A DNA stretch of 64,000 nucleotides. Source: Spiribacter halobius. GTDB lineage: Bacteria; Pseudomonadota; Gammaproteobacteria; Nitrococcales; Nitrococcaceae. Under the pieces are notes generated by a model that saw only the letters and a program-made list of their open reading frames with translations, was not told the origin of the DNA and made no database searches. A program made the translations under genes and the position numbers. The stretch spans positions 1,364,001-1,428,000 of the forward strand of contig NZ_CP086615.1 in assembly GCF_020883455.1 (NCBI RefSeq). The letters run 5' to 3'. Below, piece by piece: positions 8,190 to 42,584 of the stretch (position 1 is its first letter; every line of letters begins with the position of its first letter).

Positions 8190-8330
8190 GGCCTGTCTCC
8201 CGTGGCTGAGGTCATCTCCGCACGCTACGCCCTTTCTCCGCGCGCTGCCGGTGCGGTTGGTGACCTCGGAAGACGCCGACATCACCGACAGCACCACCGT
8301 CCGGCGACCCTGCGATGACGTCGCCCTATT

Positions 8331-12927: not shown

Positions 12928-13653
12928 TCAGCCGACCAGGCCGTTGACCAGAGCGGTCAGCCCCGCGGCAGTGCACAGAATCAGCAGGCCGGGCCGGAAC
13001 CAGGCGGGGTTGATCAGCGGCAGCACCACCCGCGCCAGCAGAAACCCGAGGAAGGTGGGGAACAGCATGAGCGTGGAGACGCCGGCATGCGCCAGCGTGA
13101 AGCGACCCACGGCGATTAGCGCGACCAGCGAGCCGACGGTGCCGATCACCATGTAAGCGGCCAGGTTGGCCCGCACCGAGCGCCCTTCCGCGCTCTGGTA
13201 GAGCAGCGCCATGGGTGGGCCACCGACGGAGGTGGTGGTGGCCATGAAGGCCGACAGCACGCCGGCGCCAAAGAGCCGCGGCCGCGTGCGCCGGATGCGC
13301 GGCTGCCGCGCACTCAGCACCACGGCGAAGAGCACGCTCAGACCGAGCAGGACGGAGAGCAGTCGGGTGGAAGCGAAGGCGAGGAAACCCAGCCCCGCAA
13401 GCGTCCCCGGTATGCGGCCGATGATGGCCCAGGTGAGCTCGCCGAGGGCCAGTCCGGCGATGTCCCGCCAGACCGTGAGCGAGGCGAGGGGGAGGGCGAC
13501 GAAGAGGATCAGCCCCGGGATCAGCGCCGGCTCGATCATGACGATGAAGGGGGCGGCGATGATCCCGAGCCCAAAGCCGATCGCGCCCTGGATCAGCGCC
13601 CCCAGGAAGATCACCAGGGCCATGATCAGCGTCTCCAGCAGCGGGATTTCCAA
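12928..13653 (-). CDS. TauE/SafE family sulfite or organosulfonate exporter
   Basis: Inner-membrane anion exporter of 241 residues with about seven to eight hydrophobic segments. The conserved N-terminal QGAIGFGLGIIAAP and the second-half SVGGPPMALLYQ motifs mark the TauE/SafE family. I chose a TTG start at 13651-13653 because AAGGGG stands 7 nt upstream and translation begins just before the first helix; the longer ATG frame adds about 48 non-membrane residues. It follows the tau-like operon on the same strand after 277 nt, consistent with exporting sulfite released from a sulfonate, though TauE/SafE members also carry other anions. Confidence 0.75.
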   Translation of the reverse strand: MEIPLLETLIMALVIFLGALIQGAIGFGLGIIAAPFIVMIEPALIPGLILFVALPLASLTVWRDIAGLALGELTWAIIGRIPGTLAGLGFLAFASTRLLSVLLGLSVLFAVVLSARQPRIRRTRPRLFGAGVLSAFMATTTSVGGPPMALLYQSAEGRSVRANLAAYMVIGTVGSLVALIAVGRFTLAHAGVSTLMLFPTFLGFLLARVVLPLINPAWFRPGLLILCTAAGLTALVNGLVG

Positions 13654-13930
13654 GGCCGTGTCCCCTTTGGCTGCATTCTGGAATCTCGGCGCGGGCATCG
13701 CGCACGGCAATCCCGGCCATGGCTCCCCGGCTTCGGGAGGCTTCCCGGCGCCCATGTTGTCCGAAGCCTGCCGACAGGGCGGTTCGCTGGGTAGCACCAG
13801 TGCGGCGGAATCGCTGATCCGTCACGGTACCCGGTTGCCGGGTGGCGCGTCAGGCGGCCTGACGTCAGCCCCGGGCGTGATGAGTTTTCAGGCGGCCCCG
13901 CAGGGCGGCTGGCAGGGGCCGCAGGGGGCG

Positions 13931-15445
13931 TCAGTGGACGCCAGGCACCTCTGCGAGCCGGCGGATGCCTTCGTCGATGTCCTCGGCGCTGATGGATGAG
14001 TAGCCCATCCGCAGATAATTCCGTGGTGCGCGATCGTCGCTGAAAAAGACATGCCCCGGCTCGACAAGCACGCCCTGCTGTCTCGCCGCCGCGGCCACCT
14101 CATCTCCGTGCATGTTCGCGGGTCCCTGCACCCAGAGTGCGGAGCCACCCTCACGCTGCCTGAAACGCCAGGCGGGCAGATGACGGCGGATCGCCGCCTC
14201 CAGTGCCTGTGAGCGCTCCCGGTAGATGCCGTTGAGATAATTCACGTAGGCCTCGTGATAGCCATTGCGGATGAACTGCGCGGCAGTGAACTCGTTGTTG
14301 TTGGCTGGATGGCGCAGGCAGAGCCGGCGCACCTTGCGCAGCTCCCGGATCAGCGCCGCGGGGCCTGCGACGTACCCGAGGCGCATGCCGTGGGCGAGGG
14401 TCTTCGAGAGGCTGCCGATGTACACCACGTTGTGGGTCTGGTCGAGACTCTTGAGGGCGGGTGTGGGGTGACTTGCGAAATTCAGCTCGCTCTCATGGTC
14501 GTCCTCGATGATGACCACGCCGTGGGCATTGGCGAGCTCGATTAGCCGCTCCCGCCGATCGATGGGCAGGGTGACGCCGGTCGGACACTGGTGGCTTGGC
14601 GTGACGAACAGATAATCACATTCCCTGATGGCCTCGCCCACGACGATGCCGTGATCGTCCATGGGGATCGGCCGCACGGAGCCGCCGTGCATCTCAAAGA
14701 TGTTGCGCGCGTCCGGATATCCCGGATCCTCCACGCCGACGACCCTGCCGTCTTCCACCAGCAGCATGGCCAGCAGGAACAGCGCGTTCTGGGCGCCGGC
14801 AGTGACCAGTATCTCGTCTGTTCCCACCCACACGCCGCGGGCCGGGAGAAGCTGCGTCTGCAGCTGTCGGATCAGCGAGGGCTCGTCGCGATCGATAAGG
14901 TCCGGTGCCCAGGCCTTGATGCCGGCCAGAGACAGCGAGGCGCGAACGCAGTCGCGCCATTCGTGGCGGGGAAAGAGCCTGGCGTCGAACTGGCCGTAGA
15001 GGAACGGATAGCGATAGTCCTGCCAGTCCGGTGGCTTGGCGATGTTGCGCTGGCCGGAGAGATCCATCCGGAAGCGTTGTTCCCAGAACGCGTCCTGGGA
15101 CGGGGTACCCTCCTTGGGCACGGCGCCGCCATCCGCGAAGTGCCGTTGCACGCGCGGATGCACGTAGTAGCCGCTCCGCTCCCGCGACTCCACGTAGCCG
15201 AGATCCATCAGCCGCCGCAGCGCGGCGGTGACGGTGCTCCGGGCCACACCCAGCCGCCGCGCGAGGGTGCGCCCGGAGGGCAGGGCGTCGCCGGGCGCGA
15301 GGAACCTTTCCACCACTGCCTGCACGAGCAGGTTCTGGACCCTGGCGCGGGGGCTGCCGGCATCGGCGTCCAGGGTCTCGTAGAGCCGGTACCACATCGC
15401 GCTCGCAGCGCGTGCCTTGCGTCCCATCCCGTCTCCTCGTGCCAT
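13931..15445 (-). CDS. MocR-type GntR regulator with aminotransferase domain (TauR-like)
   Basis: Transcription factor of 504 residues: an N-terminal GntR winged helix (residues about 18-95, SGRTLARRLGVARSTVTAAL) fused to a fold-type I aminotransferase domain. The PLP lysine is in YIGSLSKTLAHGMR (Lys348), and the aspartate of IIEDDHESE and substrate-binding GAQNALF are in place. MocR proteins such as PdxR, GabR and TauR sense amines or PLP adducts. The gene lies 58 nt downstream of tauC and is last in that run, and the direct repeats upstream of the operon match the TauR-type motif, so a TauR role is likely. Start codon ATG at 15443-15445. Confidence 0.8.
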   Translation of the reverse strand: MARGDGMGRKARAASAMWYRLYETLDADAGSPRARVQNLLVQAVVERFLAPGDALPSGRTLARRLGVARSTVTAALRRLMDLGYVESRERSGYYVHPRVQRHFADGGAVPKEGTPSQDAFWEQRFRMDLSGQRNIAKPPDWQDYRYPFLYGQFDARLFPRHEWRDCVRASLSLAGIKAWAPDLIDRDEPSLIRQLQTQLLPARGVWVGTDEILVTAGAQNALFLLAMLLVEDGRVVGVEDPGYPDARNIFEMHGGSVRPIPMDDHGIVVGEAIRECDYLFVTPSHQCPTGVTLPIDRRERLIELANAHGVVIIEDDHESELNFASHPTPALKSLDQTHNVVYIGSLSKTLAHGMRLGYVAGPAALIRELRKVRRLCLRHPANNNEFTAAQFIRNGYHEAYVNYLNGIYRERSQALEAAIRRHLPAWRFRQREGGSALWVQGPANMHGDEVAAAARQQGVLVEPGHVFFSDDRAPRNYLRMGYSSISAEDIDEGIRRLAEVPGVH

Positions 15446-15503
15446 CCGCGCCCGGCGGCCGGCTCACCGAGTGATCGGGCGCGTCGGGACGATATCGCTG
15501 TGC

Positions 15504-16367
15504 CTACACGCGCCCCTTCCAGGGCACGAGTCTGCGCTCGATGCTGCGCATCACAAGGTCGAACGCGTAGGCGATGCATCCGATCACGATGATGCCGAGT
15601 ATGACGATGGACGTGCGCAGGAACTCGGCGGCCGTCAGCACCATGAAGCCGAGCCCGGAGCGGGCCGCCACCATCTCCGCGGCCACGAGCACGGTCCAGC
15701 CGAAGCCGATGCTGATGCGCATGCCGGTGAGGATCTCCGGCAGCGCGGACTTGAACACCACATGGCGCAGCACCTGCCAGCGACTCGCCCCGAAGCTGTA
15801 GGCGACGTGGATCTGTTCGATGGAGGACGAGCGCACCCCGGCCCTCGCGGCGAGCGCCAGCGGCGCGAAGATGCCGAGGAAGATCAGGAGCACCTTGCTG
15901 GTCTCGCCGATCCCGAACCAGACGATCATCAGCGGCAGGTAGGCGAGGGGCGGTACCGGGCGGTAGAACTCGATCGGCGGGTCAAGAATGCCCCGGACCA
16001 GCCGGTTCACACCCATGCCGATGCCAAGCGGAATCGCGGTGACGCAGGCAAGCGCAAACGCGCCGAATACCCGCCTCAGGCTCTCCAGCGTGTGCCCGAA
16101 CAGGGTCGAGCCCTGATAGCCCTCGGTACTGATGGACACCGCCTGCGCAATCACGGCCTCCGGGGAGGGCAGAAACAACGGTCGGATCAGCCCGGCGTTG
16201 GTGACGATCCACCAGAGCGCGAGGATGATCAGCGCACTCCAGACGCTCACGGCACGGCTCTCGCCGGCACCGAGCTCGCCGTATACGGCCGGCCCGCCAT
16301 TCCTGCGGGTGCCGTTGCCTGCCAGGCCCGTCATGCGCCTGATCGTGTCGGATACGGCAGGTTTCAT
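15504..16367 (-). CDS. tauC: Taurine-type ABC transporter permease TauC
   Basis: Inner-membrane permease of 287 residues with about six transmembrane helices and the coupling loop EAA-like segment VAYSFGASRWQVLRHVVFKSALPEI. This matches TauC/SsuC of sulfonate importers. Start at ATG 16365-16367, which overlaps the tauB stop by 4 nt (ATGA), giving translational coupling; the longer frame is an artefact of reading into tauB. The N-terminus MKPAVSDTIRRMTGLAG precedes the first helix, as in TauC. It works with TauB (ATPase) and TauA (binding protein). Confidence 0.9.
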   Translation of the reverse strand: MKPAVSDTIRRMTGLAGNGTRRNGGPAVYGELGAGESRAVSVWSALIILALWWIVTNAGLIRPLFLPSPEAVIAQAVSISTEGYQGSTLFGHTLESLRRVFGAFALACVTAIPLGIGMGVNRLVRGILDPPIEFYRPVPPLAYLPLMIVWFGIGETSKVLLIFLGIFAPLALAARAGVRSSSIEQIHVAYSFGASRWQVLRHVVFKSALPEILTGMRISIGFGWTVLVAAEMVAARSGLGFMVLTAAEFLRTSIVILGIIVIGCIAYAFDLVMRSIERRLVPWKGRV

Positions 16368-17140
16368 CCGGCGTCCCCCTGGATTCTCCGCATGATGTCC
16401 TCGCGCATGTCGATGAACTCCCGCGACGCCTTGATCTCTCGGGAGTTGCCGGTCTTCAGGTACTGCTTGGAGAACTCCGTCTCGTAGACATGGGTGATCC
16501 GCCCCGGCCGCGGCGACATCAGGATGATTCGGGTGGCAAGGAACAGCGCCTCCTCGACGCTGTGGGTGATGAAGAAGGCCATCTTCCCGCTCTCCGACCA
16601 GGCCTTGAGCAGGATCTCCTGCACCCGCTCGCGGGTGAGGGCGTCCAGTGCGGCCAGCGGCTCGTCCATAAGCAGCACCTCGGGATCGGCGGCGAGCGCC
16701 CGGGCGACGCCGACGCGCTGCTGCATGCCGCCGGAGAGCTCGTAGATGGCCTTGGACTCGAAGCCCTCGAGCCCCAGCGCCGAGATGAAATGGCGCGCCG
16801 TCGCATAGCGCTTGGCCTTCGGAACGCCCTGGAGCATGAGCCCGAAGGCGACGTTGTCGAGCACGTTCAGCCACGGCAGCAGGGCGTGCTTCTGGAATAC
16901 CACCGCCCGGTCGGCGCCGGGGCCGGTGATTTCGCGGTCACCGAAGGAGATGCGTCCCTGGGTTGGCTGCAGAAACCCCGCGAGTAGGTTGAGCAGGGTG
17001 GTCTTGCCGCAGCCGGACGCGCCCAGTGCGACCACGAACTCACCTTCCGAGATCGAGAGGTCGGCGTTGTCCAGGGCGTGTACTTCTCCGCTTTCGGAGG
17101 GGAACACCACCGAGACCTGTTCTGCGCGTAGTGCCGTCAC
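16364..17140 (-). CDS. tauB: Taurine-type ABC transporter ATP-binding protein TauB
   Basis: Cytoplasmic ATPase of 258 residues energising the TauC permease. All ABC motifs are intact: Walker A GASGCGKTT (residues 40-48), Q-loop FQKHALLPW (Gln83), signature LSGGMQQ (135-141), Walker B VLLMDEP (155-161) and the switch His in FFITHSVEEAL. A C-terminal extension of about 40 residues ends RRIQGDAG. Length fits TauB/SsuB. It sits 70 nt downstream of tauA and overlaps tauC by 4 nt. Confidence 0.93.
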   Translation of the reverse strand: MTALRAEQVSVVFPSESGEVHALDNADLSISEGEFVVALGASGCGKTTLLNLLAGFLQPTQGRISFGDREITGPGADRAVVFQKHALLPWLNVLDNVAFGLMLQGVPKAKRYATARHFISALGLEGFESKAIYELSGGMQQRVGVARALAADPEVLLMDEPLAALDALTRERVQEILLKAWSESGKMAFFITHSVEEALFLATRIILMSPRPGRITHVYETEFSKQYLKTGNSREIKASREFIDMREDIMRRIQGDAG

Positions 17141-17210
17141 GTTGCATCCTCCAGGCCCCCGACCTCCGGGATCGGAGGTCCGATACCGCAGGTCAGGGGC
17201 GGGCCAGGGC

Positions 17211-18224
17211 CTACTGGTCGTTGACGAGTGACTCGACCCAGCTGGCGTCGACGTAGCGGGAGTAGTCGTCCGCGACGCTGTCGATCTCGCCCTGGGCCTC
17301 GAGGAACTCCGCCGTGGCGCGCAGACCCTCGGCCACGCCGCCGCCGAGCCAGAGCGGGGAAGCCTGGCGCTCGAGCGAGGGGAACTCGATGCCGTTCAGT
17401 ACCGGCGGGACATCCTCGGCGTCGGCACCGGTGTTCTGCGCGATCAGCTGAACCTCGGCGGAGTCGGCAGTCCACGCGGCACGGTTGTCGGTATAGCGCG
17501 CCGCGTAGTCCGCCACAACGCTGATGAAGTCGCGCATGAACTCGGGGTTCGCCTCGGCGAATTCGGGGTCCACCACGAACGCATCAAACGTCGGTTTGCC
17601 CCAGTTGGCGAGCTGACCCGAGGAGATCAGCAGGCGGCCACTGTCGAGCAGCTCGGATAGCACCGGATTCCAGACGAAGGCCCCATCGATGTCGCCCCGC
17701 TCCCAGGCGGCTGCGATCTGGTTGGGGCTCATGTTGATGATGTCCACCTCGGCGCGCGGGATGTTGAACTGCTCCAGCGCCACCAGCAGGTGGAAATGCG
17801 TGGTGGAGGCATAGGGCGCCGCAATGGTCTTCCCGCGGAGATCCTGGGGCGCCACGATCCCGGAGTCCTCGTGCACCACCATCGCCTCGGCGGTGTCGAA
17901 GACCTTGTCCAGGTAGACGATCCGCAGGTCGACGTTGGCGCCGATCGCGGCGGCGGTCGGGCTCGACCCCAGCGCGGTAAGCTGGACGTCGCCCGAGGCC
18001 AGCGCCGAGATGACGCTGGATCCGGAGTCGAACTGGCGCCAGTCGATATCCCAGCCCGTTGCCTCGGCGAACGCGCCGTCCTCGACGGCTGCCTTCCACG
18101 GTGTGGGCACGCCGAAATGGCCCACCGTAACGCTGTTCTGCGCGATGGCCGCGCCGGTGGTGGAGACGAGCAGTACGAGGGTGGTCAGCGCGAGCAGCGC
18201 CATTCTGAGCTTGCGTGTAGCCAT
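17211..18224 (-). CDS. tauA: Taurine ABC transporter substrate-binding protein TauA
   Basis: Periplasmic binding protein of 337 residues. A signal peptide (MATRKLRMALLALTTLVLL, cleavage near AAIAQ at about residue 28) precedes the mature part. The body follows E. coli TauA closely: DWRQFDSGSSVISALASGDVQ, GSSPTAAAIGANV, GKTIAAPYASTTHFHLL, AAAWERGDIDGAFVW and the C-terminal VADDYSRYVDASWV. Start at ATG 18222-18224, with AGGAGG seven nt upstream. Family members bind taurine or short aliphatic sulfonates, so taurine is the leading but unproven ligand. It lies 28 nt after the aminotransferase gene. Confidence 0.9.
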   Translation of the reverse strand: MATRKLRMALLALTTLVLLVSTTGAAIAQNSVTVGHFGVPTPWKAAVEDGAFAEATGWDIDWRQFDSGSSVISALASGDVQLTALGSSPTAAAIGANVDLRIVYLDKVFDTAEAMVVHEDSGIVAPQDLRGKTIAAPYASTTHFHLLVALEQFNIPRAEVDIINMSPNQIAAAWERGDIDGAFVWNPVLSELLDSGRLLISSGQLANWGKPTFDAFVVDPEFAEANPEFMRDFISVVADYAARYTDNRAAWTADSAEVQLIAQNTGADAEDVPPVLNGIEFPSLERQASPLWLGGGVAEGLRATAEFLEAQGEIDSVADDYSRYVDASWVESLVNDQ

Positions 18225-18252
18225 TGTGTCGGCCTCCTGGGTCGTTGTTGGA

Positions 18253-19449
18253 CTATTCAGGCCGGGTGGCCTGCAGGGAGTCGTCGATGATCTCGCCAAT
18301 AAGCGCGCAATCCTCCTCGGTGAATGTCAGGGGGAGGCGGATGTCGCAGAGTCGGGACAGCACGTTCTGCGTCTTTGGAAGCGCCCGCTCCACGCTCAGG
18401 TACCGCCAGTGGCGGAAATTGGATGTGTAGCCACGTGCGCTCGGGTTGCCGAACCAGGCAACGGGTACGCCGCGGTCGGCACAGCGCGAGATGAAATCCG
18501 GGAACTGCTCCAGTGCGAGGCCCTCCGCCCAGAACTGCAACGAGCTGCCGACATATTCCGCGGCGGCGTGGCGCTGTGGCAGCGTGATGCCGTCCGCCTG
18601 CGCAAGGCGCCCCTCGAGCCTGCGGTAGAGCGCGTTCCAGTGCTCGCGGCGGGCCTCGAGCTCGCTCAGCTGTGGGCGCAGCAACGCCGCGCGCAGGCGG
18701 TCCATGCGGCCGCTGTAGTTCGGGATCTCGCCGCTCAGCTCGCCGACCCGCGCGCGCGGCGGAGCGGCGAGGTGGCTGTCATAGAACATGTACGAGCCGG
18801 TGTAGAGAACCGCCCGGGCGGCGAGCTCGGCATCGTCGGTGACCAGCAGGCCGCCCTCACCCGAGTTGATGTGCTTGTTCGACTGGGTGCTGAAGCAGGC
18901 GGCGGTACCGTGGGCGCCGCTAGGGCGGTTGCGCCAGTACGCACCCATGGTGTGGGCGCAGTCCTCGATCAGTGTGATCCCGAGCTCTGCGCAGAGCGCG
19001 GCGACGGCGTCCATGTCGGCGATATGGCCGCGCATGTGGGTGAGCACCAGGAAGCGCGCGTCATGGGTCTCGGCCGCCAGGCGCAGATCGTCACAGTCGA
19101 TGGTCAGGGACTCGTCCGTCTCCACGGGCACAGTGACGCCGCCGGCGTTGTGGATCGCCCCGGGCACGGGCGAGAGCGTGAAGGCATTGCAAAGCACAGG
19201 CGTGCCCCGCTCCGGGAGCAGTGCGCGCAGGGCAATGTGCAGCGCGAACCCGCCTGAGTTGCAGGCCACGCAGTAGCGCCGCCCCACGTACCCGGCGAAC
19301 TCCTGTTCGAGCAGCGCCGCGTCGTCGGTTTCACCGGGTCCGAGGTTGTAGCGATGCAGCTTCCCGCTCGCCATGACCTCGGTGGCGCGCTCGATCCCTG
19401 CCGCGGGGATCGGCTGCTGTTCGGTAAAGGATCTCGGGAACTCGCGCAT
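18253..19449 (-). CDS. DegT/DnrJ/EryC1/StrS family aminotransferase
   Basis: PLP enzyme of 398 residues, fold type I, first gene of the tau-like operon. The Schiff-base lysine is in CFSTQSNKHINSGEGG (Lys192), the PLP phosphate loop lies near CNSGGFALHIAL and the aspartate in LIEDCAHTMG. DegT enzymes usually make amino sugars from keto sugars; here the setting is a sulfonate importer, so an amino-sulfonate or similar amine may be the substrate by inference. It is not homologous to the class III taurine:pyruvate aminotransferase Tpa. Start at ATG 19447-19449; the longer frame is unsupported. Direct repeats matching a TauR-type site lie 153-184 nt upstream. Confidence 0.75.
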   Translation of the reverse strand: MREFPRSFTEQQPIPAAGIERATEVMASGKLHRYNLGPGETDDAALLEQEFAGYVGRRYCVACNSGGFALHIALRALLPERGTPVLCNAFTLSPVPGAIHNAGGVTVPVETDESLTIDCDDLRLAAETHDARFLVLTHMRGHIADMDAVAALCAELGITLIEDCAHTMGAYWRNRPSGAHGTAACFSTQSNKHINSGEGGLLVTDDAELAARAVLYTGSYMFYDSHLAAPPRARVGELSGEIPNYSGRMDRLRAALLRPQLSELEARREHWNALYRRLEGRLAQADGITLPQRHAAAEYVGSSLQFWAEGLALEQFPDFISRCADRGVPVAWFGNPSARGYTSNFRHWRYLSVERALPKTQNVLSRLCDIRLPLTFTEEDCALIGEIIDDSLQATRPE

Positions 19450-19601
19450 CGTCTCGCCCGGTACCTCTGGTCGTTGATTGCCACCGCCACAAAGCGCCGT
19501 GCCGCGGATGCCTTCAATGCGAAACGGCATGGCGCGAATCGGAATGGCCGCCCAGGACGGCCCCGGTTGTCGTGAGGCTAGAAGACGGTTGGGGCTAAAG
19601 C

Positions 19602-19633
19602 GCAGTCCAGATTTCGCCTTTCTGGCAGTCCAG
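19602..19633 (-). promoter_or_regulatory. CTGGACT direct repeats, candidate TauR-type operator
   Basis: On the minus strand, CTGGACTGC occurs twice with a 23-base period (forward positions 19602-19610 and 19625-19633), upstream of the aminotransferase start at 19449. One copy is also half of a TTCTGG-CAGT-CCAGAA inverted repeat (19620-19635). MocR regulators commonly bind direct repeats, and a CTGGAC core has been reported for TauR as I recall it. The gene for a MocR protein is in this operon. Confidence 0.55.
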
Positions 19634-19738
19634 AAAAGCGTCTGAACGGTGGGCAGGAGCGGGCAATGCCCGCTGCCGGTGCCGATATCCCTGGCGTTGC
19701 ACGACGGTCCCGGGCGGCGCCCGCCGACCCGGCCCGAG

Positions 19739-21265
19739 CTACCGCATCTCCCGCATCAACGCCCGGCGTGCACGGGCGAGCGCATCGGTGGGGGTGCCGG
19801 TGGCGGGTACGTCCGGCCAGCGCATGGCGCCGGTATCCAGGGACAGCTGCCGCTCCAGCACCGCGAGGTCGGCGTCCGAGGCGTCTGCGGCACGGGCCGC
19901 GACACGCTGGCGCAGCACGTCGGCCGGGGCGGTCAGCCACAGCCCCGTGAACGGAACGCGCAGGGAGTGACCGATGGCCTCGGCCCGCTGACGACTCTCC
20001 GGGCGGGTGAAGGTGGCGTCGAGGATGGCGGGCCAGCCGGCGAGGGCGGCCCGGCGGGCGTGGCGCTCGAGGCGCCGGTAGGTGCGGCGGGTGTGCTCGG
20101 GGCGGTAGGCCTGCTGTGGCAGCCGTGCCTCCGGGGCGACGCCGGCGAGGCGCTTGCGGATGCCGTCGCTGCGCAGCTGCACGGCACCGGGGCCGGGTGC
20201 GAGGTCCGATCTCAGGCCGCGGGCGACGGTGGACTTCCCCGTCCCGGACAGGCCGCCGATGGCGACGACCCGTGGTTCCGGCGCCCAGTCCAGCGCGCTG
20301 CGGGCGAGGTGGAAGTAGTCCCGCGCGCGGGACTGCCGCTCGGGGTCGTCGGTGAGGCCGTTGGCCATGGCGCGGACCAGGGCGCGCACCGAGACGAATA
20401 AGGGCAGGCAGGCGAGGCCGCTGTAGTCGCCGGTGGCTTCCAGATAGCGGTTGAGGAAATCGCCGGCGAGCGCGCGCTCCCCGTGCGCCAGCAGGTCCAT
20501 GACGGTGAAGGCGGCATCGTAGAGGGTATCCGTGCAGGCGAGTGCCTCGGAGAACTCGATGGCATCGAAGGGCGTCGCCCGGCCCTCGAACAGGCAGGCG
20601 TTGGCCAGGTGCAGGTCACCATGGCCGTGGCGCACACGGCCGTGGCGTCGCCGCGCCTCGAGCCGCGGGCCGAGCCGCCGCCAGCTGGCGTCAAGGGCAG
20701 CACCGAGCGCATCCAGCGCGGTACCTGCGAAGGGGCTCGTCTCGGCCTCGGCGAGCGTGTCCAGGGGGACCCGGTAGTGATGGCGCATGCCTTCGGCGCC
20801 GCCGTGGTCCCGGCGGATCCCGGCCTGCGCATGGAGGTCGGCGACGGCGTCGGCGAGATCAACCACGTGCTCCGTGCTCAGGCGGCCTTCCCGCGCCATG
20901 ACATGGAACAGGTCCGCCTGCTCGAAGCGGCGCATCACCACCAGCCAGTCCACTGGCTCGCCGTTGCCCTCGCCGAGGGTGAAGCCGCCGTCGTAACGCC
21001 GCACCGGGATCACGGCCTCGTAAAGGTGCGGCGCGGTGCGCCGGTTGACCGCGAGCTCGGTCTCGGCGGCGTGACGTCGCCGCTCGGGTGTGCCGTAGTC
21101 GAGGAATGCCGGGGCATCCGCCTTCTTCAGCTTGTAGACATGATCGCCCGCGAGGAAGACATGGCTGATCTGGGTCTCGACATGCTCCACCGCGGCGCCG
21201 CCGTGGGCGTCCGGGCGCTGGAGCCAGTCGACCAGGGCGCGCTGCATGCAGGGATTCTCGGGCAT
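19739..21265 (-). CDS. Bifunctional phosphotransferase-like / AAA kinase-like protein
   Basis: Cytoplasmic fusion of 508 residues. The N-terminal part (to about residue 330) is an aminoglycoside phosphotransferase-type kinase fold: HGHGDLHLANACLF carries the catalytic loop and the following DAIEFSEAL the metal Asp. The C-terminal part is a P-loop kinase domain: Walker A GGLSGTGKST near residue 347. The whole architecture is conserved as a fused family in proteobacteria; its substrate is unknown and no antibiotic-resistance role should be assumed. Start uncertain: ATG at 21263-21265 is used, with a GTG five codons upstream and an ATG six codons downstream as alternatives. It follows the Kef antiporter gene by 95 nt. 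Confidence 0.8.
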   Translation of the reverse strand: MPENPCMQRALVDWLQRPDAHGGAAVEHVETQISHVFLAGDHVYKLKKADAPAFLDYGTPERRRHAAETELAVNRRTAPHLYEAVIPVRRYDGGFTLGEGNGEPVDWLVVMRRFEQADLFHVMAREGRLSTEHVVDLADAVADLHAQAGIRRDHGGAEGMRHHYRVPLDTLAEAETSPFAGTALDALGAALDASWRRLGPRLEARRRHGRVRHGHGDLHLANACLFEGRATPFDAIEFSEALACTDTLYDAAFTVMDLLAHGERALAGDFLNRYLEATGDYSGLACLPLFVSVRALVRAMANGLTDDPERQSRARDYFHLARSALDWAPEPRVVAIGGLSGTGKSTVARGLRSDLAPGPGAVQLRSDGIRKRLAGVAPEARLPQQAYRPEHTRRTYRRLERHARRAALAGWPAILDATFTRPESRQRAEAIGHSLRVPFTGLWLTAPADVLRQRVAARAADASDADLAVLERQLSLDTGAMRWPDVPATGTPTDALARARRALMREMR

Positions 21266-21360
21266 GGCTGGTACCGCCACGGCGTCTCCGTCGATCCCAT
21301 CCTGAAGTGGGTATGGCTTCGGTGTACAGGGTCGATTGTGCAGCGCAATGCCGCGCTGTG

Positions 21361-22929
21361 TCAGGCCTTCTCCGTCGGTGTTGCCGGCTGCAGCGCGCTG
21401 CAGAGGTGCTCGCCCAGGCCGAAGCCCGCCTCGGTCATGGTGAGGTAGGTGTCATCGGCGCCCTGGGCGGTGACGCGGTCGGCCTCCTCCTGGTGCATGG
21501 CATGGCCCACGATGAGCCCGTGGTAGCCGCTCTGGCGCAGCTGGCGGACGGCGGTCTCCTTGGACTCCTGTCCGGCCAGGGCGAGGACCACCGCGCGGAC
21601 ATCGCTCAGGTCCAGGTTATGCCAGAAGAACGGGTCGTCGGCGTCGGCATAGGCCACCTTGCGGCCCTGCCCGGTGTGATGGCTGATGCGGCTCGGATCG
21701 GAATCGATACCGATGGGCCGCAGCCCGCGGTCCCGGATATAGTCATAGGTGGCCGTGCCGACACGTCCCATGCCGAGGATCAGCACGTCGGCATTGTCCA
21801 GCGCGATCGGTTGCTCGTCGGGGTGCTCCCAGGAGCGCTCGAACCGCTTGAGGCGGTGCTCCAGGCGCTCCACGATAAGGTTGCTGTTGCGGTTGAGCGG
21901 CGCCGAGACGATGAACGACAGCGCCACCGCCACGGCCAGCGGTACGACCCACTCCTCGAGCAGCACCGCCGCGACGATCAGGCCGAACTCGCTGTAGCAG
22001 GTGAGGGACAGGCTGCAGACCAGGGCGTTGCGCACCCGCAGGTGGAAGGCAATCAGCAGCGCGAAGAACAGCAGCGCCTTCAGCGGCAGGACAAGCGCCA
22101 GCGCCCCCGCGAACAGGAGCTCGCTGCTGCTCGGCAGCCCGGCGAGGCCGATCTGCAGAAAGAACCCGACCAGGAACACCTCCTTGAGGCTCCATAGCGC
22201 GTCGGCGAGTGCCTTGCTGCGGCCATGCTCGCCCAGCAGCACGCCCATGAGCAGCGCACCCAGCTCGCCGCTGAGGCCCACGGTCTCGAAGCCGAGGCCG
22301 CCGATCACCACGGCCATCAGCATGCCCACCAGAACCAGCAGCTCCTCCCGCCCCGCGGTCTCCAGAAGCCAGTAGAGCAACGGCCGCAGCAGAGGCAGGG
22401 CGAGCAGCAGCAGTGCCCAGGGCGAGGGCTTGTGTTCGCTGAACAGCGCCAGCGTGGCAATGGCGATGAGGTCCTGGATGATCAGGATGCCGATGGCCGA
22501 GCGGCCATGAAACGCGCGCAGCTCGCGCTTGGCGTCGAGCATCTTCGCGGCGAGCACGGTGCTGGAAAACGACAGCGCGATGGCCAGCAGCACCGCCTCG
22601 CGCCCGGCGAGGCCCGCGAGCAGGACGAGGGCGCCGGTGAACACGGCCGTCGTCACGGTGAAGTGGATGAGCGAGGTGCCCACCACATGGCGCTGGATGA
22701 GCTGGCGGAGCTTGAGCTTCAGGCCGACGGTGAACAGCAGCAGCAGGATGCCGACGTGGGCGATGTGATCGAGTACCGGGCCCGTGAACTCGGGCATCCC
22801 CAGGTCGGGTCCCCAGGCGCTCAGCGCAAAGCCGGCCAGCAGGAAGCCCACCAGCGGCGGGATGCGGATCTGCTGCATCAACAGGCCGAAGACCAGCGCG
22901 AAGCTGATCGTCAGAAGCTCGAGCATCAT
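21361..22929 (-). CDS. Kef-type monovalent cation:proton antiporter (CPA2)
   Basis: Inner-membrane antiporter of 522 residues with about twelve helices (residues 1-370) and a C-terminal RCK/TrkA-N domain (VLILGMGRVGTATYDYI, near residue 385) followed by a short tail. GILLLLFTVGLKLK and SFSSTVLAAKML match KefB/KefC and YbaL-type CPA2 transporters. It likely exchanges K+ or Na+ for H+ under control of a bound nucleotide or thiol signal; no KefF/KefG partner is adjacent. Start at 22929 (MMLEL, second Met at 22926 also possible). The neighbour upstream is the GH84-type glycosidase gene, 206 nt away. Confidence 0.9.
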   Translation of the reverse strand: MMLELLTISFALVFGLLMQQIRIPPLVGFLLAGFALSAWGPDLGMPEFTGPVLDHIAHVGILLLLFTVGLKLKLRQLIQRHVVGTSLIHFTVTTAVFTGALVLLAGLAGREAVLLAIALSFSSTVLAAKMLDAKRELRAFHGRSAIGILIIQDLIAIATLALFSEHKPSPWALLLLALPLLRPLLYWLLETAGREELLVLVGMLMAVVIGGLGFETVGLSGELGALLMGVLLGEHGRSKALADALWSLKEVFLVGFFLQIGLAGLPSSSELLFAGALALVLPLKALLFFALLIAFHLRVRNALVCSLSLTCYSEFGLIVAAVLLEEWVVPLAVAVALSFIVSAPLNRNSNLIVERLEHRLKRFERSWEHPDEQPIALDNADVLILGMGRVGTATYDYIRDRGLRPIGIDSDPSRISHHTGQGRKVAYADADDPFFWHNLDLSDVRAVVLALAGQESKETAVRQLRQSGYHGLIVGHAMHQEEADRVTAQGADDTYLTMTEAGFGLGEHLCSALQPATPTEKA

Positions 22930-38672: not shown

Positions 38673-39011
38673 ATGAACGCGAACGTCCTGCTGCGTCGAC
38701 TTCTGTTCGCGCTGCTGCTTGCCCTCCCGCTGGCCGCCGCGGCCCAGTCCCTGGACGAGTTCCGGGCCGAGGGGATCATTGCCGAGCGCTTCGACGGGTA
38801 TGTGGAGGTGCGCACCGACGACGCCCCCGCGGCGGCGCGGCGGCTGGTGGAGGAGGTCAACGCGCAGCGCCGAGAGCTCTACCGGCAGCGCGCCGAGAGC
38901 CAGGGCGTGCCCGCGGACGAGGTCGGCAAGGTCTACGCCGAGACCATCATGGAGCGCGCCCCGGCGGGTACCTACTTCCGCATGCCTGGCGGGCACTACG
39001 TCCGTCGCTGA
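38673..39011 (+). CDS. ydbL: YdbL family DUF1318 periplasmic protein
   Basis: Periplasmic protein of 112 residues with a signal peptide (LLRRLLFALLLALPLAAAAQS, cleavage near residue 22). The mature part matches DUF1318: GIIAERFDGYVEV, VEEVNAQRRELYRQRAES, VPADEVGKVYAETI. YdbL modulates YdbH-YnbE assembly. Start at ATG 38673 with GGAGG nearby, 13 nt after the ynbE stop; the longer frame reads into ynbE. The operon ends here and is followed by a REP-type palindrome. Confidence 0.92.
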   Translation: MNANVLLRRLLFALLLALPLAAAAQSLDEFRAEGIIAERFDGYVEVRTDDAPAAARRLVEEVNAQRRELYRQRAESQGVPADEVGKVYAETIMERAPAGTYFRMPGGHYVRR

Positions 39012-39048: not shown

Positions 39049-39113
39049 AGGAGCGGCGCCCTCGCCGCGAATCTGGCCCGCGAGAGAAGATTCGCGGCGA
39101 GGGCGCCGCTCCT
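39049..39113. repeat. REP-type palindrome (GGAGCGGCG element)
   Basis: Two perfectly complementary 26-base arms, 39049-39074 and 39088-39113, separated by 13 bases. Beyond the arms the match continues imperfectly. The outer sequence AGGAGCGGCGCC with an adjoining CTGCAGG/CTACAG edge resembles intergenic REP elements widespread in gammaproteobacteria. It follows the ydbL stop and could end or stabilise that transcript. Confidence 0.85.
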
Positions 39114-39156
39114 ACAGTGCTTGATCGGGCGTTCGGCGGCTGATCACCGGCGTTGT

Positions 39157-42458: not shown

Positions 42459-42507
42459 GCCGCCCTGCGGCATCCGGCAAGGCGGGCCGCCAGGTGTGGC
42501 CCGCGAG

Positions 42508-42561
42508 CCCGGAAAGCTCACCGATTCGTGCCCGCAGCCGCGAATCGGTGAGCTATCCGGG
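42508..42561. repeat. Palindromic repeat between dctP and dctQ
   Basis: Arms 42508-42528 and 42541-42561 are complementary at 20 of 21 positions with a 12-base loop. The right part recurs as a 24-base exact half-site at 24617-24640 and as a degenerate relative near 58601. It may tune relative expression of the binding protein and membrane subunits, a known role for such hairpins in transport operons. Confidence 0.75.
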
Positions 42562-42584
42562 CTAGCCCGTGAGGGAGGCGCACT

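Follow-up and report, generated by a model that had tools for sequence, protein, structure and literature searches.

Introduction

The closest described relatives of the site considered here are the operators of the MocR-type regulators, and above all those of TauR. In PMC5320631 and PMC4494728, from which the consensus used in this work was taken, TauR of Rhodobacter capsulatus is associated with direct repeats of CTGGACYTAA, and PMC5320631 also gives tauABC as a usual TauR target. Another arrangement among the MocR operators, the alternating three-box type, comprises 85 regulons in Table 2 of PMC5320631. PMC4494728 describes the MocR motifs known at that time as having no obvious similarities and as not comparable.

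The operon and its upstream repeats

In the window (the whole 64-kb stretch of DNA that was analysed), five genes follow one another on the minus strand, in the order DegT aminotransferase, TauA, TauB, TauC and MocR, with the boxes upstream of all of them:

18253-19530, minus strand: DegT/DnrJ/EryC1 aminotransferase, the operon's first gene (Pfam PF01041)
17211-18227, minus strand: TauA-like substrate-binding protein (NCBIfam TIGR01729, the model for taurine-binding proteins, 352.8 bits, above the cut-off of 304.25)
16364-17140, minus strand: TauB-like ABC ATPase (best model PRK11248, a taurine model, 317.2 bits, below the cut-off of 357)
15504-16397, minus strand: TauC-like permease (best model PRK10160, also a taurine model, 307.4 bits, below the cut-off of 342)
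13931-15445, minus strand: MocR-type regulator with a GntR wHTH and an aminotransferase domain, the operon's last gene (PF00392, PF00155)

The alignments of the DegT homologues begin at about residue 24-31, and for that reason the true start of the DegT protein is probably Met28, at 19449, which would place box 2 about 150 bases from the gene, as against 71 if the first ATG is taken. Between 19430 and 19760 no sigma-70-like promoter was found.

The first-pass annotation had reported a pair of repeats spaced 23 bases apart upstream of a tau-like operon, and this pair is indeed present on the minus strand, at 19602-19610 and 19625-19633, as two copies of the 9-base core CTGGACTGC whose identity extends to 10 bases (19634-19625 and 19611-19602, start-to-start distance 23):

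19625-19634, minus strand: box 1, the upstream copy, TCTGGACTGC, identical to box 2 at 10 of 10 bases
19602-19611, minus strand: box 2, the downstream copy closer to the operon, TCTGGACTGC, identical to box 1 at 10 of 10 bases

The exact pair occurs a single time in the 4.17-Mb genome. When the genome was scanned at spacing 23 with up to three mismatches, nine other pairs appeared, each of them with three mismatches (six in the backward control), and there was no near copy with two mismatches or fewer; a dispersed repeat element is thus ruled out, the genome containing no near copy of the pair. As for pairs of pure CTGGAC with CTGGAC, there are 32 genome-wide, vs 9 in the control, and as their spacings are nearly all multiples of 3, they are probably Leu-Asp codons.

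The spacing of TauR-type sites and the odds against chance

The spacing was surveyed at 41 loci, 40 of them round MocR homologues of other genomes and one round the paralogue of the present genome (L032 and L138-L177, where L177 carries an outgroup MocR); overlapping sites were left unmerged, both in this survey of 22/23 pairs and in the collection of sites for the matrix described below. Pairs matching CTGGACYTA at 15 or more of the 18 positions showed peaks at spacings of 22 (n=12) and 23 (n=14), every other spacing from 12 to 44 yielding at most two pairs, and the reversed control gave one pair at 22 and none at 23. The same scan round 96 loci with DegT homologues found two pairs at 22, one at 23 and no peak, so the 22/23 architecture goes with the regulator; with no motif peak round its homologues, DegT is ruled out as a general marker of the TauR regulon. 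The earlier proposal that the repeats are of the direct-repeat type used by MocR proteins agrees with the surveyed 22/23 spacing and with the direct repeats of CTGGACYTAA in PMC5320631.

How readily such a pair could arise was estimated from 5000 dinucleotide shuffles of 19531-19738. An exact direct repeat of 10 bases appeared in 91 of them at any spacing from 12 to 60, and in 8 at a spacing of 22-23; a CTGG pair at 22-23 appeared in 58, and a CTGG pair at 22-23 identical at 9 of 9 bases in none, figures to be read with the 22-23 criterion having been derived from the TauR survey and not from the window site, yet with the spacing and the word first spotted at the window site. That the repeat is a product of chance, or the site of an unrelated factor, with MocR uninvolved, is in our judgement unlikely, although it has its share of support: repeats of this length do arise in shuffles when the spacing is free, the finding was chosen from a scan of 64 kb, a second exact direct repeat in the window, GCGCCGAGAGC, of 11 bases and located at 38867, also has a spacing of 23, and the exact pair is found in one of the 369 genomes of the class, which is the present one. 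What speaks against chance is that CTGG, the spacing, the location and full identity come together here, a combination that none of the 5000 shuffles reproduced.

Palindrome and hairpin around the boxes

The palindrome TTCTGG-N4-CCAGAA, which had been noticed at one of the copies, was found in a slightly longer form, TTTCTGG-N4-CCAGAAA, with arms of 7 bases. It belongs to an inner palindrome at 19615-19640, with arms of 11 bases and one mismatch, and this in turn lies within a longer structure, which forms an imperfect hairpin of 18 pairs on the operon strand:

19605-19647, minus strand: imperfect palindrome or stem-loop of 43 nt, enclosing box 1 and the greater part of box 2 (its inner arms span 19615-19625 and 19630-19640)

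The RNA fold of 19560-19650 has -35.7 kcal/mol and a z of -4.1, equalled by none of 200 shuffles, and the hairpin folded as single-stranded DNA has a z of -3.7, equalled by one of 200. These folds, together with the long arms, favor the explanation that the element is an RNA or cruciform stem-loop (a boundary or a 5′ leader), or a palindromic dimer site, and that the repeat is a by-product of inner and outer arms that share TCTGGAC; the palindrome can indeed explain part of the self-similarity. We nevertheless consider this quite improbable: the hairpin is moderately unusual, given that among the 25,576 windows of sixty bases in the 64 kb there are 47 whose fold is as good for their G+C; the structure lacks a T run, no terminator was called around the boxes and there is no Rfam match in 13000-22000; and the stem-loop leaves unexplained the identity of the word at 10 of 10 bases at the TauR spacing. 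The palindrome was also considered as the main signal and was rejected, since it is not significant alone, arms of 7 bases arising in 376 of 3000 shuffles and arms of 11 bases that pair at 10 positions in 70 of 1500.

Other inverted repeats exist in the window. At 19658-19674, between the stop of the upstream gene and the boxes, there is a perfect 7-base inverted repeat, AGCGGGC-N3-GCCCGCT, without a T run; at 39050-39114 there is a long near-perfect palindrome, formed by GGAGCGGCGCCCTCGCCGCGAAT and its complement, which we take to resemble a REP-type extragenic element; and at 42506-42565 another long near-perfect inverted repeat is formed by AGCTCACCGATTCG and its complement.

Letters of the boxes and the paralogous TauR cluster

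When CTGG was the only requirement for both boxes, at 40 of these loci, CTA occupied positions 7-9 of box 2 in 28 of 153 pairs at spacings of 22/23, whereas pairs at other spacings had it in 17 of 2477; one of the 153 had TGC in these positions; no TauR-like relative using TGC there was seen in the survey. In other words, the conserved word near TauR-like genes is CTGG-N2-CTA, with AC variable. The matrix trained on the collected sites was seeded with CTGGACYTA, which inflates the frequency of CTA (the count just given required CTGG only), and it gave the window site 0.6 bits vs at least 15 for the collected sites, a score reached by 71 of the 127,914 positions of the window.

The window boxes thus resemble a TauR operator in that both start with CTGG, have a spacing of 23 and lie upstream and on the strand of the taurine genes, and depart from it in that both have TGC at positions 7-9, and not YTA/CTA. 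The likeness of the CTGGAC core to the TauR site, which had been suggested earlier, stands therefore with respect to CTGG, the spacing and the strand; it does not stand with respect to CTGGAC itself, which does not discriminate, nor to the CTA, replaced by TGC in both boxes.

The canonical form, CTGGNNNNA-N13/14-CTGGNNCTA, has two sites in the whole genome (backward control, one), at 1234445-1234476 and 1239588-1239619, both of them in a cluster (1234445-1239619) that surrounds a paralogue of the window MocR:

G000:C1:1226000-1244500: L032 cluster, with the MocR paralogue, Xsc, an FAD oxidoreductase and TRAP genes

The paralogous MocR (G000:C1:1234711-1236183) is 49% identical to that of the window, and the Xsc (sulfoacetaldehyde acetyltransferase) is above the cut-off of TIGR03457. 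This cluster looks like the TauR regulon of the genome, of which the window operon is no canonical part. Because TGC replaces CTA twice, and because the canonical sites belong to the paralogue elsewhere, the window pair is, strictly speaking, no TauR site. The alternative in which it serves as a degenerate site of the canonical paralogue, which would control both taurine clusters, has in its favor the CTGG boxes at spacing 23, as in TauR sites, and tauABC as a customary target (PMC5320631), but is very improbable in view of the matrix score and of the lack in both boxes of the CTA that both sites of the paralogue cluster have in box 2.

The MocR protein of the operon

The window MocR contains PF00392 and PF00155, the combination of the MocR subfamily, with SLSKTL in its translation, and its PLP lysine presumably lies in the SLSK motif. 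A quick tree built from 53 MocR proteins groups it with 46 TauR-like rows vs 6 outgroup rows (SH-aLRT 92), and there it forms a long branch of its own (length 1.24) that no starred set encloses. The place of a vertically inherited TauR is held in this tree by the paralogue L032, grouped with the order relatives L174 and L175 (98), and not by the window MocR. As the NCBIfam PdxR model fits the window protein above its cut-off (346.5 bits, cut-off 320), its TauR-like placement is one made by the tree, and not by a curated TauR model.

In the recognition helix, compared with rows L151 and L177 left out, the Arg that reads G is kept (Arg69, 42 of 42), and it is followed by a Ser70 that is found in the window MocR alone, the 42 others having Asn (33), Ile (8) or Gly (1). 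With the register to FadR aligned by eye, Ser70 falls at GntR-fold position 39, given in Table 1 of PMC4494728 as a base contact in both FadR and AraR. Further along, Leu76 of the window protein takes the place of a Tyr or Phe found in 41 of 42, and its Arg77 is shared by none of the others. Judged by the near-invariant columns, where it shows five departures and two other proteins show seven, the protein is not exceptionally damaged. The concordance between a changed helix and a changed box, in one genome (n=1), is suggestive.

Search for orthologous operons

No orthologous DegT-tauABC-MocR operon was found in the genomes searched. For MocR these were 59 relatives, 54 genomes of the order, 369 of the class and 398 of the phylum, as well as plasmids, with 49% as the best foreign identity. 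For DegT they were the 369 genomes of the class together with the genome_contigs collection, and the best identity among the matches listed (best 80 of 586) was 56%. Within these best 80 of 586 loci, matches to tauA, B and C lay near DegT in two (L064 and L119) and a match to MocR in five, and tauABC and MocR were found together in none; the flanks of 16 DegT loci (L042-L057) measure about 1.5 kb and are uninformative on neighbours. A related arrangement is that of L148, with tauABC, a TauR-like gene, three genes and then DegT, where sites of the TauR type lie at 8217 and 9767; the three intervening genes, named partly by sequence likeness, we take to encode a TauE-like exporter, an SDR and a class III aminotransferase.

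The DegT family and cysteate catabolism

At 90 DegT loci (including two duplicates, L179 = L073 and L181 = L104), the neighbours on the same strand and within 5 kb comprised a HisD/HpsN-like dehydrogenase in 40, CuyA in 26, CuyB in 17 and TRAP genes in 15. CuyA and CuyB were named by NF052482 and NF052483 above their cut-offs, from one representative each, and the HisD-family protein would be HpsN, to judge by its neighbours. In the class, CuyA above cut-off is present in 11 of 369 genomes, and a full-length relative of DegT with at least 48% identity in 11 of 369, six more distant or partial matches being left uncounted; the two are found together in 8 of 369 (hypergeometric 3e-12, with kinship ignored). 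The DegT family, then, tracks with cysteate catabolism. In the present genome a single CuyA exceeds the cut-off, located at 1619630 with a LysR gene and an ABC transporter as neighbours, and the one DegT relative of that grade is the window gene. A literature search gave no match joining DegT with taurine and sulfonate aminotransferases, and PMC11382572 treats the aminotransferase for the conversion of sulfopyruvate to cysteate in R. pomeroyi as unknown; on the strength of its gene neighbourhoods and of the genomes it shares with CuyA, the DegT family is a candidate for the sulfopyruvate-cysteate aminotransferase.

Discussion

The direct repeat is real and probably functional, with the geometry of TauR and letters that are not those of TauR. 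The reading that we prefer, and on which we would place about even confidence, is that the DegT-tauABC-MocR operon has its operator in this pair of repeats and that the protein binding there is the MocR which the operon itself encodes, a divergent representative of the TauR-like clade. It is read as an operator because the spacing of 23 and the CTGG match the survey peak, because the shuffles did not reproduce it and because it is unique in the genome; and its own MocR is proposed as the reader because the gene is in the same operon, belongs to the TauR-like clade and has Ser70 in its recognition helix. Against this reading count the single site in a single genome, the TGC at positions 7-9 with its low matrix score, the failure to find a sigma-70-like promoter in 19430-19760, the fit of the PdxR model to the MocR and the palindrome around the repeats.

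We infer protein binding at the boxes, the identity of the binder, its ligand and the direction of control, and the mechanism would be as follows: (i) upstream of the promoter, the two subunits of a head-to-tail MocR dimer would each set a winged helix on one of the CTGG boxes, which are separated by about two turns of the DNA helix; (ii) taurine, cysteate or a related amino-sulfonate would react with the PLP of MocR, and the operon would be turned on; (iii) of the features of TauR operators, CTGG in the 5′ half and the spacing of 22/23 bp would have been kept, and in both copies the 3′ half would have passed from CTA to TGC, together with a changed recognition helix; (iv) and finally, the altered box and helix would keep the window operon apart from the canonical TauR regulon of the genome.

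A more far-reaching proposal, which we offer tentatively and regard as rather unlikely, is that two TauR-like regulators in one genome have diverged by rewriting the same half-word. The native one would have kept CTGG-N2-CTA (Xsc/TRAP), and that of the window would have acquired CTGGACTGC at 23 bp with an Asn-to-Ser change in the helix, its operon serving an amino-sulfonate such as cysteate, and not taurine alone, with DegT as a cysteate/sulfopyruvate aminotransferase. If this were true, a single genome would offer a natural pair of regulator and paralogue, with operator and counter-operator, for mapping residues of the MocR helix to bases, and a regulator and an importer would be attached to an enzyme family, that of DegT, which tracks with cysteate catabolism.

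Compared with the known systems, the window site stands closest to the TauR operators (that of R. capsulatus TauR, and the TauR and TauR2 regulons of PMC5320631), with which it shares two direct CTGGAC boxes, the strand of tauABC, the 22/23 spacing according to the survey and the presence of a TauR-like MocR; it differs from them in the TGC at positions 7-9, in the position of the regulator gene, last in the operon, and in the DegT gene that leads it. With the cluster of the paralogue L032 it has in common a MocR that is 49% identical and CTGG boxes at spacing 23, although there the second box ends in the canonical CTA, transport is of the TRAP type and Xsc is present, whereas the window has TGC and ABC transport. 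The operators of other MocR proteins (GabR, PdxR and OapR, with two direct boxes and one inverted, or with alternating boxes) also resemble it in having direct boxes separated by about two turns of the helix, and the alternating three-box type finds a parallel in the inverted CCAGA between the direct boxes of the window, although this CCAGA lacks significance when taken alone. In its letters, however, the window word departs from GabR's ATACCA and from PdxR's AAAGTGGW(-/T)CTA, both given in PMC4494728.
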